Origin: an uncultured Nitrospira sp.
Lineage (GTDB): Bacteria; Nitrospirota; Nitrospiria; Nitrospirales; Nitrospiraceae
NCBI GenBank assembly: GCA_902500785.1
Contig: CABVRW010000011.1
Location: forward strand, 27,886-78,757
Length of the DNA: 50,872 nt
Reading direction: 5' to 3'
The notes below the pieces were generated by a model that had not been told where the DNA came from, ran no database searches, and saw nothing but the letters and a program-made list of their open reading frames with translations. Numbering within the stretch: position 1 is the first letter of the stretch; each line of letters begins with the position of its first letter. Shown piece after piece: positions 7,349 to 13,136 of the stretch. The translations under genes were made by a program, and so were the position numbers.

Positions 7349-7559
7349 CCCCTGCTCGTCGTTTCCTGCCTGGCGCCAACCGGTCGGAGTAGGCCTGAGA
7401 GAGAGTCTGCGTCCGTTCGGCTCCCGATATCAGGGGCGAGGCGCATGGGTTCCTCTCGGGTCTCATCGCGCGCCCTGTGCCCCCGTCGTGGAGAGCCCCG
7501 CACCGCTTCGAGATTGCGCTCGCCGCTCCGTTTCCCTACAATGGCTTCCCCATTCGGCC

Positions 7560-8498
7560 ATGTCCAGTACGAACACACGAAATAAGCGGCACCAGCCGCG
7601 CAGTTCCTCCCACCCGCTTTATTGGCCCACATGGGTCGGTCTCGGGTTGTTCCGCCTCCTGGCATTGCTTCCCTATCGCTGGCAACTCGCATTCGGGCGG
7701 CAGTGCGGACGCTTGCTGCATGGTCTGCTCACCAAGCGGCGCGATATCGTGCGGGTGAATTTGGAACTGTGTTTTCCGGAGCAAGCTCCGGCAGAACGTA
7801 ACGAGATCGCGCTGCATTGCTTCGAGTCCATGGGGATGGGCGTGCTGGAGATCGCCATGGCGTGGTGGGCGAAGGATCCCCGCGCGCACTGTGAATGCAC
7901 GATCAAAGGGTTGGAGCACATCCAGGAGGCACTCCAGGAGGGGCGAGGCGTGTTGCTCTGCGGTGCACATTTGCATGCGGCGGAACTCGCCGGTCGTTTC
8001 ATGGCGCTTGAGCAGCCGGTCGCGATTGTCTACCGGCCTCAGAACGATGTCGTGGCGGAAACCGTCGCGAATCGATGCCGGAGCCGATACTATTCCGAAT
8101 TGATCCAGCACCGGGATATGCGAGGGATTCTGCGGGCATTGGCCAGCAACCAGGTGGTGTGGTATGCCCCCGATATCGACGCGGGATCGAAGCGGAGTGT
8201 CTTCGCGCCGTTTTTTGGTGTGCCGGCTGCGTCTCTGACCGCCACTTCTCGATTGGCCAAGGTCAGTGGAGCAGCGGTGGTGCCCTGTTTTTATTACCGC
8301 AGAGCCGACAGATCCGGCTATGACATTGAAGTCGGGCCGGCGCTGGATCACTTCCCGTCCGGCGAAATGGTGCAGGATGCCACCCGGATCAACCGGTTGA
8401 TTGAGGGGGCCGTCCGCCGCGTTCCGGAACAATACTTTTGGCAGCACCGCCGCTTCAAGAGCCGCCCTCCCGGCGAGCCGCCGATCTATCGGCGCTGA
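7560..8498 (+). CDS. LpxL/HtrB-family lysophospholipid acyltransferase
   Basis: A 312-residue member of the lipid A late acyltransferase family, which adds a secondary acyl chain to Kdo-lipid A or a related acceptor at the inner membrane. It has a hydrophobic N-terminal anchor (about 22-38), the HX4E catalytic motif at H137-E142 in CGAHLHAAE, the following VAIVYRP (about 154-160), and a DIDAG segment typical of the family near 208. The ATG at 7560 gives the usual family length; an in-frame start at 7488 would add unconserved residues. It lies between PilZ genes and upstream of the Mla operon. The acceptor could be lipid A or another glycolipid. Confidence 0.88.
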   Translation: MSSTNTRNKRHQPRSSSHPLYWPTWVGLGLFRLLALLPYRWQLAFGRQCGRLLHGLLTKRRDIVRVNLELCFPEQAPAERNEIALHCFESMGMGVLEIAMAWWAKDPRAHCECTIKGLEHIQEALQEGRGVLLCGAHLHAAELAGRFMALEQPVAIVYRPQNDVVAETVANRCRSRYYSELIQHRDMRGILRALASNQVVWYAPDIDAGSKRSVFAPFFGVPAASLTATSRLAKVSGAAVVPCFYYRRADRSGYDIEVGPALDHFPSGEMVQDATRINRLIEGAVRRVPEQYFWQHRRFKSRPPGEPPIYRR

Positions 8499-8643
8499 CG
8501 CGTCTTCCCTCGAGAGGGAGGCGCGGATATTGATGTCGGACTGGGGGGACGGCGAAATGATGAGAAGTATTCGGCGTCTCCTGCTTCTTGCGCTATACTG
8601 ATCCTGGCTGAATCTAGAGTACGGTCGCATCATCCGCTCCGCC

Positions 8644-9021
8644 ATGGATCAATCCAATAAGCTTTCCCCCGCGCGCATCGAACTACGGCAGCACCAGCGG
8701 TGCGTCGTTCCGCCGGCGTGCCTGCTTTCGTTTGCGCCCTTTGCTCCGACCATCAGTTTTAACGGTGATGCAGAGGGCGAAGGCGTCGTCATCAACCTGT
8801 CGTCCGGTGGGTGCCAAATCAGCAGCGACATAGGGGTGAATGTAGGCGATGCGATGTCTCTGATCATCATGCTGCCTGGTGAAATCGCCCCGACAGCCAT
8901 TGATCTGGCCTTGGTACGATGGGGCAGGGAAAGGCATTTTGGCGTCGAGTTTGTGTCCATGGGGACGGTTGAACTCGATCGGCTCCGCCAATTTCTCGCT
9001 TCCATCCCTGTCTTTGAATAG
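8644..9021 (+). CDS. single-domain PilZ protein (second of three)
   Basis: A 125-residue PilZ-domain protein. The c-di-GMP motifs RQHQR (about 14-18) and NLSSGG (about 51-56) are intact. The C-terminal WGRERHFGVEFVSM strand closes the barrel. It is clearly paralogous to the 6968-7348 product in length and layout, but the sequences have diverged. It sits 145 bases after the acyltransferase and 57 bases before the third PilZ gene, so the two adjacent PilZ genes may share a transcript. No effector domain is attached. Confidence 0.85.
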   Translation: MDQSNKLSPARIELRQHQRCVVPPACLLSFAPFAPTISFNGDAEGEGVVINLSSGGCQISSDIGVNVGDAMSLIIMLPGEIAPTAIDLALVRWGRERHFGVEFVSMGTVELDRLRQFLASIPVFE

Positions 9022-9078
9022 GGCGGGGGCCGGGGCGAATGATACGTGCGTCGTGGGTGCGATGAGAAAGGAGCTCCA

Positions 9079-9411
9079 GTGGAAAACACGAAAACGTTGC
9101 GCAAGTCTCGTCGGGTCGCGATCGATTGCCGGTTGGAGTTCATCGGAGAAGATGATGTGGATGGGGCGGCGGAGGTGCTGGATCTCTCCTGTACCGGTTG
9201 TATGGCCAAGTCGGACAGCACGATGCAACCGGGACTTCGCATGAAGGTGTCCCTGTTTCTGTCGGACGGGCATGAGTGGCCGGTTCGCGTGGAAGAGGCC
9301 GTTGTTCGATGGGCGCGGGGCGGAGAGTTCGGCATGGAGTTTCTGGTCATGCGCCCCCCGCAACTCCAGCGCATCCAACAGTTCGTCATCAAGACCAGAC
9401 CGTTGGGATAA
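9079..9411 (+). CDS. single-domain PilZ protein (third of three)
   Basis: A 110-residue PilZ-domain protein with RKSRR near residue 9 and DLSCTG near 39-44, so both c-di-GMP motifs are present. The last strand reads WARGGEFGMEFLVM. The GTG at 9079 is chosen because AAAGGAG lies just upstream and the domain starts directly after it; an ATG upstream would place the ribosome site inside the gene. The next gene is mlaE, 225 bases downstream. Confidence 0.83.
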   Translation: MENTKTLRKSRRVAIDCRLEFIGEDDVDGAAEVLDLSCTGCMAKSDSTMQPGLRMKVSLFLSDGHEWPVRVEEAVVRWARGGEFGMEFLVMRPPQLQRIQQFVIKTRPLG

Positions 9412-9636: not shown

Positions 9637-10416
9637 ATGATCGAGTGGGTGGGACGCAAGACGATCGCCGGCGCGACCTACCTGGCGGCGCTGGCCACGC
9701 TCTTCTCACAAGCCGTACTGGATCTGGTACTCCCGACTCAACAGGGACGCCGGGAAACGCTGCGGGTGCTCGTCAGGCAAATTCTTTTCACAGGGGTCGA
9801 TGCCTTACCTGTGACGACCGTCATCGCGCTTTTGCTCGGCATCATCATCGTGACTCAGGCGGGGACGCAGCTTCCACGGCTTGGGGCCGGCGGCCTCGTG
9901 GGGAGCATCATCGTGGTGACCGTCATTCGCGAACTCGGCCCGTTGATCACGGCCTTCATCGTGGTCGGTCGGTCGGGAACGGCCATCGCGACGGAGTTGG
10001 GCACCATGTCGGTGACGGGCGAGGTGGTGGCGCTCCGGCTCATGGGGATTTCAATCAGTCGATTTGTCATCATGCCCCGTATGGTCGGCATGGTCCTCTC
10101 GATGCTCTGCCTGACGCTGTATTTTGATGTGGTGGCTGTGTTGGGAGGCTACCTGATCGCTGATGCGCAACTGACTATTCCGTTTTATGCGTTTGTGGAA
10201 AGTGTCACCAAGGCGCTGTCGACGACGGATGTGCTGATGACCGCCGTCAAAGGCCTGTGTTTTGGATCGGCCGTGGCAGCCGTCTGTTGTCACCACGGTC
10301 TGGCCGTTCGATCATCGTTTACGGAAGTGCCGCAGCAAACGACCCGCGCCATGATCAATTCGTTTATCCTGTGTTTACTGATCGATGTGGTCGTGACGGT
10401 ACCGCTCTACCTATGA
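9637..10416 (+). CDS. mlaE: MlaE-family ABC permease
   Basis: A 259-residue permease of the MlaE/YrbE family, the membrane subunit of the MCE phospholipid transporter. An amphipathic N-terminal helix is followed by about five membrane segments. The family hallmark region runs through RELGPLITAFIVVGRSGTAI (about 93-112) and ATELGTMSVTGE (about 113-124). Its last codons overlap the start of the ATPase gene by four bases (ATGA), so translation is coupled. It would form a dimer bound by two ATPase and six MCE subunits. Confidence 0.92.
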   Translation: MIEWVGRKTIAGATYLAALATLFSQAVLDLVLPTQQGRRETLRVLVRQILFTGVDALPVTTVIALLLGIIIVTQAGTQLPRLGAGGLVGSIIVVTVIRELGPLITAFIVVGRSGTAIATELGTMSVTGEVVALRLMGISISRFVIMPRMVGMVLSMLCLTLYFDVVAVLGGYLIADAQLTIPFYAFVESVTKALSTTDVLMTAVKGLCFGSAVAAVCCHHGLAVRSSFTEVPQQTTRAMINSFILCLLIDVVVTVPLYL

Positions 10417-11144
10417 GTGAGGCAGCCCTTGTTCTGGAGCAGGTCCGGACGCCGATGTTCGGCAGCCCTCATCACCTGGAGGTGGATCTGCGCATCGCCG
10501 CAGGCGAGTTCGTCGCGCTTGTCGGCCCGAGCCGTTCAGGGAAAAGCCTGATCATCGAGCTCGCAGCGGGGTTGGTGTCACCGGAAGCGGGCCGGGTGGT
10601 TCTGTTGGGTCATGAGTGGTCTGGAGGTTCAGAAAGTGAATACAATCCGGTGCGGATCCGAGTGGGGACTGTGCTGGAGCAACCCGGGTTGTTGAACAAT
10701 ATGACGCTGTTCAATAACGTGCTCTTGCCGCTTCGGTATCATCGTGGGGCGCTGTCCGATCGCAGTCGGGAACATGCTGTGATGGCGCAGTTGGAACGAT
10801 TGGGTTTGACACCGATGCGGGATCGGTTTCCTGCCGAACTCAGCCACGGTGAAGTGCGAAGAGGTGCCATTGCGCGGGCCTGCATGTTGGATCCTGAGGT
10901 GCTGCTGCTGGACGATCCCGTGGCCGGGGTGGATGCTGAGATGCAGTTGGTGCTCAAGGCCTATGTCGAAGAACGCAGGGCAGACCATTCGTTGACGGTG
11001 GTCGTGGCGTTGCGCGCGTGGTCGCCGTTCATCGAGGGGGCGGATCGACTGGTGGCGCTCCATGACGGCCGCGTCAAGGCCGACGGGCCTCGTGATGCGG
11101 TGGCCGAGGTCGTTCCCGAGGCGCTCAGACGATATGTGGAATAG
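10413..11144 (+). CDS. mlaF: MlaF-type ABC ATPase with degenerate catalytic motifs
   Basis: A 243-residue nucleotide-binding subunit, placed by its position between the permease and MCE genes. Walker A is normal (GPSRSGKS, 38-45) and the Q-loop glutamine is Q90. The signature reads LSHGE (143-147) and not LSGGQ. The Walker B end is LLLDDP, putting Asp168 where the catalytic Glu is expected. The H-switch position reads VVVALRAW, with Leu200 in place of His. ATP binding therefore looks possible but hydrolysis is likely weak or altered. The ATG at 10413 overlaps the mlaE stop. The frame and length are intact, so this is not a simple pseudogene. Confidence 0.87.
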   Translation: MSEAALVLEQVRTPMFGSPHHLEVDLRIAAGEFVALVGPSRSGKSLIIELAAGLVSPEAGRVVLLGHEWSGGSESEYNPVRIRVGTVLEQPGLLNNMTLFNNVLLPLRYHRGALSDRSREHAVMAQLERLGLTPMRDRFPAELSHGEVRRGAIARACMLDPEVLLLDDPVAGVDAEMQLVLKAYVEERRADHSLTVVVALRAWSPFIEGADRLVALHDGRVKADGPRDAVAEVVPEALRRYVE

Positions 11145-11190
11145 ACCGCGTCCTGCCGAGGCGGTCCAGCGAGACTGAGAGGTGATGGAC

Positions 11191-12180
11191 ATGCATTATT
11201 CACATCGGCTATCCAGCGGGCGATTGGCTCAAATCGTCGGCACATTCGTGCTGATTCCCGTTCTGATTCTGGCGGTGGCCGGTTTTTGGATGTCGAAGAC
11301 CGAGCATCTCTTCGAGCCGAAGTACCACCTCATGTCCAGCCTCAGTAAGTCTTATGGTCTGGAGCCGGGAGCGCCGGTCGTGGTCTCCGGGATTCGGATC
11401 GGGAGGGTGAAACAAGTGGATCTTAACGCTCGCGGGACGGTTGACCTGACCCTGCAATTGTCGACTCGGTACCAGGAGATGGTAAAGAGCAACTCGGAGC
11501 TTCGGATCACCAAGAGCGGGGTGGTGGTGGGCCAAACTCAAGTCGATATCGGAGCGGGGACCGCCAGCAGTCCGGTATTGACCGACGGCGGCACGATTCG
11601 CGCCGTTGAACCGAGAGACATCGGGGATCTCCTCAACGAGGTTGAACCGGTGCTGATGGCCGTGAAGCAGACACTGTTGCGGGTGGAAACCATTACTCAG
11701 GATCTGCAGGGTGGGCTGAAAGCCGGCGGCAAGGCGTTGGAGCAGGTGGCGTTGGCGACGCAGGATCTGCCGGCGGTCGTGGCGTCGGTTCAGCGCACGA
11801 TCGCATCGGTAGAGCAGACAGCGACCACCCTGCCCGCCATGACCGGCTCGATTCAGCGCACGTTGGGCGTCGTGGATCGTGTTACGGCAGACATGCAGCG
11901 CACTACCAGTCGATTGCCCACTATTTTAGACACGGCGCAATCCACACTCACCAGCGTGAAGCGTCTCTCCGATTCGGTGGGTGAGGTGAGTCAGGAACTG
12001 CTTCCCGTCATTCAGACGGCTGAGACCATGCTGGCAGACGTGTCGACCCTGGTGCGCGGCGCAAAGCAGACATTTCCCTTTAACCGATTTGCTCAGAACG
12101 CCGGGCCTGCGCCGAAACCGGAAGGTGCCATGTCCGCGACTGGGCCTCCGAGCTTGCGTGGGGATCACGTGCGCCGATGA
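11191..12180 (+). CDS. mlaD: MlaD-like MCE-domain protein
   Basis: A 329-residue membrane-anchored MCE protein. One N-terminal membrane segment (about residues 12-32) is followed by an MCE domain (about 38-120) with the conserved GLEPGAPVVVSGIRIGRV and SGVVVGQTQVDI. A long helical region with repeated spacing (QRTIASVEQTATTLP, QRTLGVVDRVTADM) runs to about residue 300. In MlaD a hexameric ring forms the lipid channel. This protein has a longer C-terminal coiled region than E. coli MlaD, resembling the tube-forming MCE proteins. The ATG at 11191 suits the GAGAGG eight bases upstream. It overlaps the next gene by four bases. Confidence 0.9.
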   Translation: MHYSHRLSSGRLAQIVGTFVLIPVLILAVAGFWMSKTEHLFEPKYHLMSSLSKSYGLEPGAPVVVSGIRIGRVKQVDLNARGTVDLTLQLSTRYQEMVKSNSELRITKSGVVVGQTQVDIGAGTASSPVLTDGGTIRAVEPRDIGDLLNEVEPVLMAVKQTLLRVETITQDLQGGLKAGGKALEQVALATQDLPAVVASVQRTIASVEQTATTLPAMTGSIQRTLGVVDRVTADMQRTTSRLPTILDTAQSTLTSVKRLSDSVGEVSQELLPVIQTAETMLADVSTLVRGAKQTFPFNRFAQNAGPAPKPEGAMSATGPPSLRGDHVRR

Positions 12181-13136
12181 TCGCAACGAGACATGGGTGT
12201 GCCGCAGGCGTCTGCGGCGTTGCGTTGTGCCTGCTGCTTGGATGCGCGAATCCGCCTCCGCCACAGCCTCTCGCACCCTCGCCTCGGCCGCTGGCCACCC
12301 GGGTTCATGCGTTCCGTCTGCAGGGAGATCGTTGGTTGGCGCGGGGAGACCTGGCACGTGCGGAGGAAGCCTATGAAGAGGCCCGCAAGATGGCCGAGAG
12401 TCTCGATGACGTGACGGGGCGTATCAGTGTGCTCAATGATCTGGGGCACGTGGCGTTCGACCGAGGTGCCATGCACGAGGCGATCGCGTTTCACCAGCGG
12501 GCCGTCGCCCTGGCACAACAGTTTGGCGAGACAGAGCTCTGGATCGTCGCTCTCACCGCCTTGGGGGCCGCAGAATATCATGAGGGACACATCGATGTGT
12601 CCGGACAACGGTATCAACAGGCGCTGGATCTGCTCCAGCAGTGGCCGGACCAGCGAACTGAAGCTATTCTCAGAAATAATCTCGGATTGGTGCGGCAGGC
12701 GAAGGGGGAAATGGAGCAGGCCGGACAATTGTTTCGTCAGGCGATGACCTTGAACCAAGCCGCGGGACATCTTGAGGCCGAGGCCAGCAATCACGTGAAT
12801 CTCGGGATTCTGGCGGAGGAACGCCACGAGTATGAGACCGCGGAGCAAGCGTTCGAGCGAGCCCTGGAGTTGGATAAGACCGCGAAGCGGCGAACGGAGA
12901 TCGCCGCCGATCTGCTGCGGCTGAGCCGGATCGCGGAACGCCGGGGGTTCTCCGATCGGGCGATGGGTTATGCTGAGCGGGCCTACCGTAGCTTCCTGGC
13001 GCAGGGAGATCAGTCTCAGGCGGTCGAGGCGCTCGCGCTTGCCGTGGGTTACGCCAGGAAATTGGGACACGGAGGGGAGGTGGCGCGGCTGGAGAAGGAA
13101 CTGAGTGGCCTGACCCCATCCCGATCCGGGCGGTAG
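12177..13136 (+). CDS. TPR-repeat lipoprotein of the Mla operon
   Basis: A 319-residue protein with a lipoprotein signal ending in LLLGC (Cys23), a Pro-rich linker, then six to seven tetratricopeptide repeats over about 45-300. Repeats are visible as successive pairs such as GDLARAEEAYEEARKMAE, GAMHEAIAFHQRAVALA and HEYETAEQAFERALELD. The start codon overlaps the mlaD stop (ATGA), so it belongs to the mlaE-mlaF-mlaD operon. It occupies the place of other accessory lipoproteins in MCE operons. A role as an outer-membrane tether or assembly factor is inference. Confidence 0.87.
   Translation: MIATRHGCAAGVCGVALCLLLGCANPPPPQPLAPSPRPLATRVHAFRLQGDRWLARGDLARAEEAYEEARKMAESLDDVTGRISVLNDLGHVAFDRGAMHEAIAFHQRAVALAQQFGETELWIVALTALGAAEYHEGHIDVSGQRYQQALDLLQQWPDQRTEAILRNNLGLVRQAKGEMEQAGQLFRQAMTLNQAAGHLEAEASNHVNLGILAEERHEYETAEQAFERALELDKTAKRRTEIAADLLRLSRIAERRGFSDRAMGYAERAYRSFLAQGDQSQAVEALALAVGYARKLGHGGEVARLEKELSGLTPSRSGR

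Follow-up and report, generated by a model that had tools for sequence, protein, structure and literature searches.

Mla lipid transporters are assumed to depend on ATP hydrolysis; which way the lipid travels and what powers it are debated. ABC transporters with degenerate sites are already known, and so are MCE systems that lack an ABC ATPase. CFTR, TAP, MRP1 and TM287/288 have lost the H-switch His as well as the catalytic Glu and carry a degenerate signature (that of CFTR NBD2 reads LSHGH), yet these proteins keep one live composite site. In PqiABC and LetAB, which use PqiA- or LetA-type membrane proteins, the MCE lipid tunnel apparently works with no ABC ATPase to drive it. Mycobacterial Mce systems have a YrbE/MlaE-type permease with an EExDA motif in its coupling helix, and a catalytic ATPase that is encoded apart, MceG/Mkl, does the work.

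The locus described here lies in a stretch of 50,872 nucleotides from an uncultured Nitrospira sp., referred to below as the window. It encodes an operon-like run of four genes in the order mlaE, pseudo-mlaF, mlaD and TPR lipoprotein gene (Table 1). Like MlaFEDB of the E. coli type, this module combines an ABC nucleotide-binding domain (NBD) fold with the company of mlaE and mlaD and a stretch for docking on the coupling helix. It differs in its gene order, in lacking a STAS/MlaB or MlaC gene, and in having an NBD protein, pseudo-MlaF, without the catalytic motifs or the C-terminal 'handshake' extension. Unlike CFTR and its counterparts, the module has a sole encoded NBD that is altered in all hydrolysis elements, such that a homodimer would contain two dead sites. 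In contrast to PqiABC and LetAB, it keeps the MlaE permease and the NBD scaffold, and in contrast to the MceG/Mkl systems its degenerate NBD is encoded inside the operon. Pseudo-MlaF is probably a dedicated pseudo-ATPase. It would serve an Mla-like lipid conduit as a structural or gating NBD, and the conduit would not be powered by ATP hydrolysis of its own.

Table 1. Features of the Mla-like module, in window coordinates
Feature	Position	Strand	Remark
mlaE-like permease of the same module	9637..10416	+	Pfam MlaE PF02405, E=3.7e-63
pseudo-MlaF, ABC-type NBD with degenerate catalytic motifs	10413..11144	+	243 aa, without C-terminal 'handshake' extension
Walker A region GPSRSGKS, residues 38-45	10524..10547	+	GxxG Gly replaced by Arg41; K44 and S45 kept
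Glu49, aligned with E. coli MlaF Arg52	10557..10559	+	charge-swapped in Nitrospira
Glu89 at the Q-loop Gln position	10677..10679	+	Gln in 25/27 genus members
Docking stretch, residues 93-110 (LLNNMTLFNNVLLPLRYH), after the Q-loop	10689..10742	+	Tyr109 replaces a canonical-invariant Glu
Signature region LSHGE, residues 143-147	10839..10853	+	LSGGM in canonical MlaF
Walker B region LLLDDP	10902..10919	+	Asp168 replaces the catalytic Glu
Arg201 at the H-switch His position	11013..11015	+	aligned to E. coli MlaF H203
mlaD-like MCE protein: TM helix, MCE domain, long helical C-terminus	11182..12180	+	Pfam MlaD, E=4e-13
TPR lipoprotein, fourth gene of the module, lipobox LLLGC	12177..13136	+	4-nt overlap with mlaD

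Pseudo-MlaF is encoded in a single unbroken 243-codon frame, as originally predicted, and terminates at residue 243, before any handshake extension. The gene had been placed between mlaE and mlaD with overlap coupling. Its position and its overlap with mlaE hold (a 4-nt ATGA at 10413-10416), whereas its stop codon is separated from the mlaD start by 37-46 nt; mlaD probably begins with the ATG at 11191, a conserved start. The second ATGA overlap of the module, also of 4 nt, joins mlaD to the lipoprotein gene (12177-12180). Pfam assigns pseudo-MlaF to ABC_tran (PF00005, E=4.6e-25), while its score against the NCBIfam MlaF equivalog NF008809, 97.4 bits, falls well below the curated cut-off of 441. 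The partner MlaE scores 213 bits against PF02405 (cut-off 22.5) and 157 bits against TIGR00056 (cut-off 212). The fold of pseudo-MlaF is intact in the predicted structure (pLDDT 93.8), which matches ABC NBDs with Z scores of 27-31, including 30.2 for MlaF (6xgz_C). No STAS (MlaB) partner occurs among the neighbouring proteins scanned, and the module operon contains no second, catalytic NBD.

Three hydrolysis elements had been singled out in the original prediction, along with a normal Walker A. Two of these assignments, the LSHGE signature and the replacement of the Walker B Glu by Asp168, are correct, and Asp168 (codon 10914-10916) aligns with E. coli MlaF E170. The H-switch has to be moved by one residue: E. 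coli H203 aligns with Arg201, and Leu200, the residue named originally, occupies the preceding Ser/Thr position. Walker A is not normal either, because Arg41 stands at the GxxG glycine, which is G in 79 of 79 canonical MlaF proteins examined. Pseudo-MlaF thus lacks an LSGGQ-type signature, the Glu that follows Walker B and the H-switch His, all of which characterize catalytic ABC proteins. A pair of such subunits should be unable to build a working ATP sandwich, since the signature serine/glycine is lost along with the catalytic Glu and the His of the H-switch. A homodimer is unlikely to hydrolyse ATP, because these three elements and a P-loop Gly have all changed and neither the handshake nor MlaB is present.

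Orthologues are found in 27 of 29 Nitrospira genomes, with 58-100% identity, and the E-F-D adjacency holds at the genus loci checked. All 27 copies have R41, E147, D168 and R201. None has an LSGG signature (most have LNQGE or LNHGE). A normal Glu and His in close homologues would have counted against the prediction, and none of the 27 has either residue. Only about 30% of columns are invariant across the 27 members and yet R41, D168 and R201 are all among them, which is more than chance would be expected to produce. Pseudo-MlaF and its cognate MlaE are both absent from the two remaining genomes (G018 and G101). In G018 the module is lost, and a remnant of its MlaE that contains a stop codon (L105, 3328-3669) lies next to the LpxL and PilZ genes that usually accompany the module. 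Two additional substitutions are common to the window and its nearest relative, G080: Arg to Gly in the MlaE coupling helix (window 10018-10020), and Gln to Glu in the Q-loop, the latter limited to these two. It is as if the site were drifting further in this pair.

The partner MlaE is better conserved than the NBD and was used to trace the wider clade. Clade MlaE proteins occur in 49 of 235 genomes of the order, in 5 of 77 Nitrospinota genomes and in 36 of 297 genomes from the phylum of a deltaproteobacterial record. A maximum-likelihood MlaE tree separates 48 clade rows from 24 canonical ones with a support of 100/100 for the split. After alignment of the NBDs with canonical MlaF, five elements were scored (Walker A, LSGG, D, E and H). 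None of 74 full-length clade NBDs contains [LIVM]SGG or all five elements, compared with 79 of 79 canonical controls that have all five; both sets include close relatives and reduce to 43 and 39 sequences at 75% identity. The original suggestion of a lineage-specific variant is thereby supported, for a lineage far wider than Nitrospira that takes in Nitrospirota, Nitrospinota and the deltaproteobacterial phylum.

The pattern of degeneration varies by branch. Most Nitrospinota members retain the DE of Walker B and have lost the signature and the His, and DE is also retained in some deltaproteobacterial members. The H-switch His survives in only a few cases (L191 and three sister-genus members). 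Walker A is erased in L204, L212, L216-L221 and L261-L263, and completely so in L204, L212, L216, L219, L220 and L261-L263. These genes are still in frame, still adjoin mlaD and still carry the docking stretch, and Pfam ABC_tran is still detected in all five of them that were scanned. Six loci at first appeared to have MlaE alone (L205, L206, L210, L214, L215 and L190). Wider stretches and whole-genome searches led to this idea of orphan permeases being dropped, as all six genomes turned out to encode a degenerate NBD beside mlaD, at another site of the contig or genome. A further locus, L213, ends at a contig edge and is outside the six.

What has been retained, with some altered residues, is the stretch that faces the permease. 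In the E. coli structure, coupling-helix residues E127, Q128, S131, M135 and R142 of MlaE lie against R52, L96, R157, Y108 and E112 of MlaF (PMC7784689). Mean identity over residues 93-110 is 0.68 in the clade and 0.72 in canonical MlaF, compared with 0.37 versus 0.93 for the signature and 0.21 versus 0.63 for the H-switch. Tyr109 aligns with E. coli E112, which contacts MlaE Arg142, and with one exception this position is Tyr throughout the clade. It does not form a strictly covarying pair with MlaE 142, where canonical MlaE may also have Tyr, Phe or Leu. The pair formed in E. coli by MlaE E127 and MlaF R52 has become R-E in 24 of 26 Nitrospira, and in the remaining two, the window among them, the MlaE residue is Gly. 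The coupling helices read TREVVA in most of the genus and TGEVVA in the window, where the canonical motif is TE(Q/E)xDA. Sister genera with Gln on the MlaE side carry Lys or Arg on the NBD side. The charge swap is confined to Nitrospira and a few sister genera, and deltaproteobacterial pairs are not complementary. As judged from these residues, the interface speaks for a dedicated, physically docked subunit and disfavours easy exchange with canonical MlaF, with few independent events behind it.

Pseudo-MlaF is under purifying selection and is less constrained than canonical MlaF. Across twelve members of the genus, pseudo-MlaF has a median dN/dS of 0.19, compared with 0.043 for canonical MlaF from the same genomes; the corresponding values are 0.053 for the cognate MlaE and 0.016 for canonical MlaE. 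Close pairs within the group that lacks Walker A give 0.22-0.39. The idea that pseudo-MlaF alone is relaxed had to be discarded, as canonical MlaF also outpaces its MlaE (dN ratio about 2.8, versus 3.8 here). Evolutionary rate alone is weak evidence for this reason.

These features suggest a mechanism in which pseudo-MlaF, an ABC NBD in its fold, would still grip the coupling helix of its own MlaE. Most likely its dimer would sit on the MlaE dimer as a cap with a structural or gating role. Lipid could then travel between the inner membrane and an outer partner, which may be the TPR lipoprotein, by way of the MlaD tunnel and with no ATP hydrolysed by pseudo-MlaF. Gradients or other forces would drive this flow, as in MCE systems lacking an ABC ATPase. 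In Nitrospira, nucleotide may still be held by K44, S45 and D167, in a static or regulatory role. ATP binding cannot be the shared function of the clade, in several members of which Walker A is erased.

Three roles had been proposed for the protein originally, and that of a non-hydrolysing transporter agrees best with the loss of motifs across the genus and the clade. The second, a slow but real ATPase, would have Asp168 act as a weak base in Nitrospira, with Arg201 and Arg41 replacing the His and Gly. K44, S45, D167, D168, D174, R41 and R201 are each invariant in 26-27 genus members, as expected for a kept site. The retention of K44, S45, D167 and D174 also argues against a pseudo-ATPase, as does the survival of DE or of the His in some branches of the clade, and a Glu to Asp change need not abolish activity. 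E. coli MlaFEDB hydrolyses ATP at about 126 per min. The E170Q mutant of E. coli MlaF loses about 80% of its ATPase and retains about 20% in vitro (PMC7784689). However, neither this mutant nor K47A supports growth of E. coli on SDS/EDTA (PMC7784689, PMC7367683), and with LSGG absent in 74 of 74 clade members and Walker A erased in several, hydrolysis cannot be what the clade has in common. Slow hydrolysis is therefore possible for Nitrospira, if unlikely, and fails as a clade-wide function. Decay of a non-functional gene in a system that is being lost would fit the elevated dN/dS relative to canonical MlaF, the MlaE remnant in G018 and the failure to find the system in G101. This explanation has already been largely refuted and is highly improbable: frames are intact in all full-length copies seen, dN/dS is well below 1, the gene is retained beside mlaD across phyla and its docking residues are conserved. 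A sequencing or assembly error in the window has practically no chance of being the cause of the odd residues and is ruled out because 27 genomes share them, among them Ca. Nitrospira defluvii with its complete chromosome (L107, FP929003.1).

The third proposed role, that of a partner for a second ATPase, would place pseudo-MlaF and a canonical MlaF supplied in trans on one MlaE dimer, with one degenerate and one live site as in CFTR, TAP or TM287/288. The search for a second MlaF that had been recommended found two canonical paralogues with complete catalytic motifs in the same genome, and a separately encoded ATPase, MceG/Mkl, does serve the mycobacterial Mce systems. Canonical MlaF was found in 17 of 20 clade genomes and not in G487, G562 and G713, whose assemblies may be incomplete. 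Each of the two paralogues sits in an Mla operon of its own, with neighbours assigned by reading the sequence rather than by profile. One operon (L077, G000:C20) appears to encode a squalene-hopene cyclase, an HpnG-like protein, MlaE, MlaF, MlaD and MlaC, and is possibly a hopanoid-transport system. The other (L078, G000:C47) encodes an apparent STAS-MlaE fusion, MlaF, MlaD and a PqiC-like lipoprotein, and appears to be an Mla-Pqi-like mixture. A mixed pair is quite unlikely, given that the pseudo-MlaF signature, which the live site would need, is itself lost. In addition, docking residues have diverged (MlaE R127 with pseudo-MlaF E49, and MlaF E112 to Tyr), and a canonical Lys or Arg would face Arg in most Nitrospira MlaE proteins. 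The existence of canonical MlaF in the genome thus speaks for such a partnership, while the separate operons, the diverged docking and the three genomes lacking a detected canonical MlaF speak against it.

Whether the pseudo-ATPase reading extends to the whole clade is evenly balanced. It would mean that ABC-derived MCE transporters of several phyla gave up ATP hydrolysis for an ATP-independent trans-envelope lipid conduit, with the pseudo-NBD dimer as a structural or gating cap only. A literature search of partial coverage, which is not proof that the case is unreported, returned no multi-phylum Mla-type clade whose NBD is degenerate in every member. A lineage in which the motor has been dismantled and the rest kept and selected would separate the structural role of the NBD from its ATPase role, and would connect Mla-type systems with MCE systems that have no ABC ATPase. 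There is also a warning for annotation, as these proteins are labelled ABC ATPases and yet probably do not hydrolyse ATP.

The TPR lipoprotein is the conserved fourth gene in Nitrospirota and is detectable at one Nitrospinota locus. It is a possible outer-membrane or periplasmic partner, and a bridge across the envelope would fit this lipoprotein together with the TM helix, MCE domain and long, poorly predicted helical tail of MlaD. Modelled with AlphaFold, MlaD has a mean pLDDT of 60, and the model is good for the TM helix and MCE domain only. Directly upstream of the module (window 7488-9411) are genes for an LpxL/HtrB-type lipid A acyltransferase and two PilZ-domain proteins. This gene order is kept in the wider genus loci checked (L074-L076 and L096-L098), which hints at a tie to envelope lipid homeostasis or c-di-GMP.
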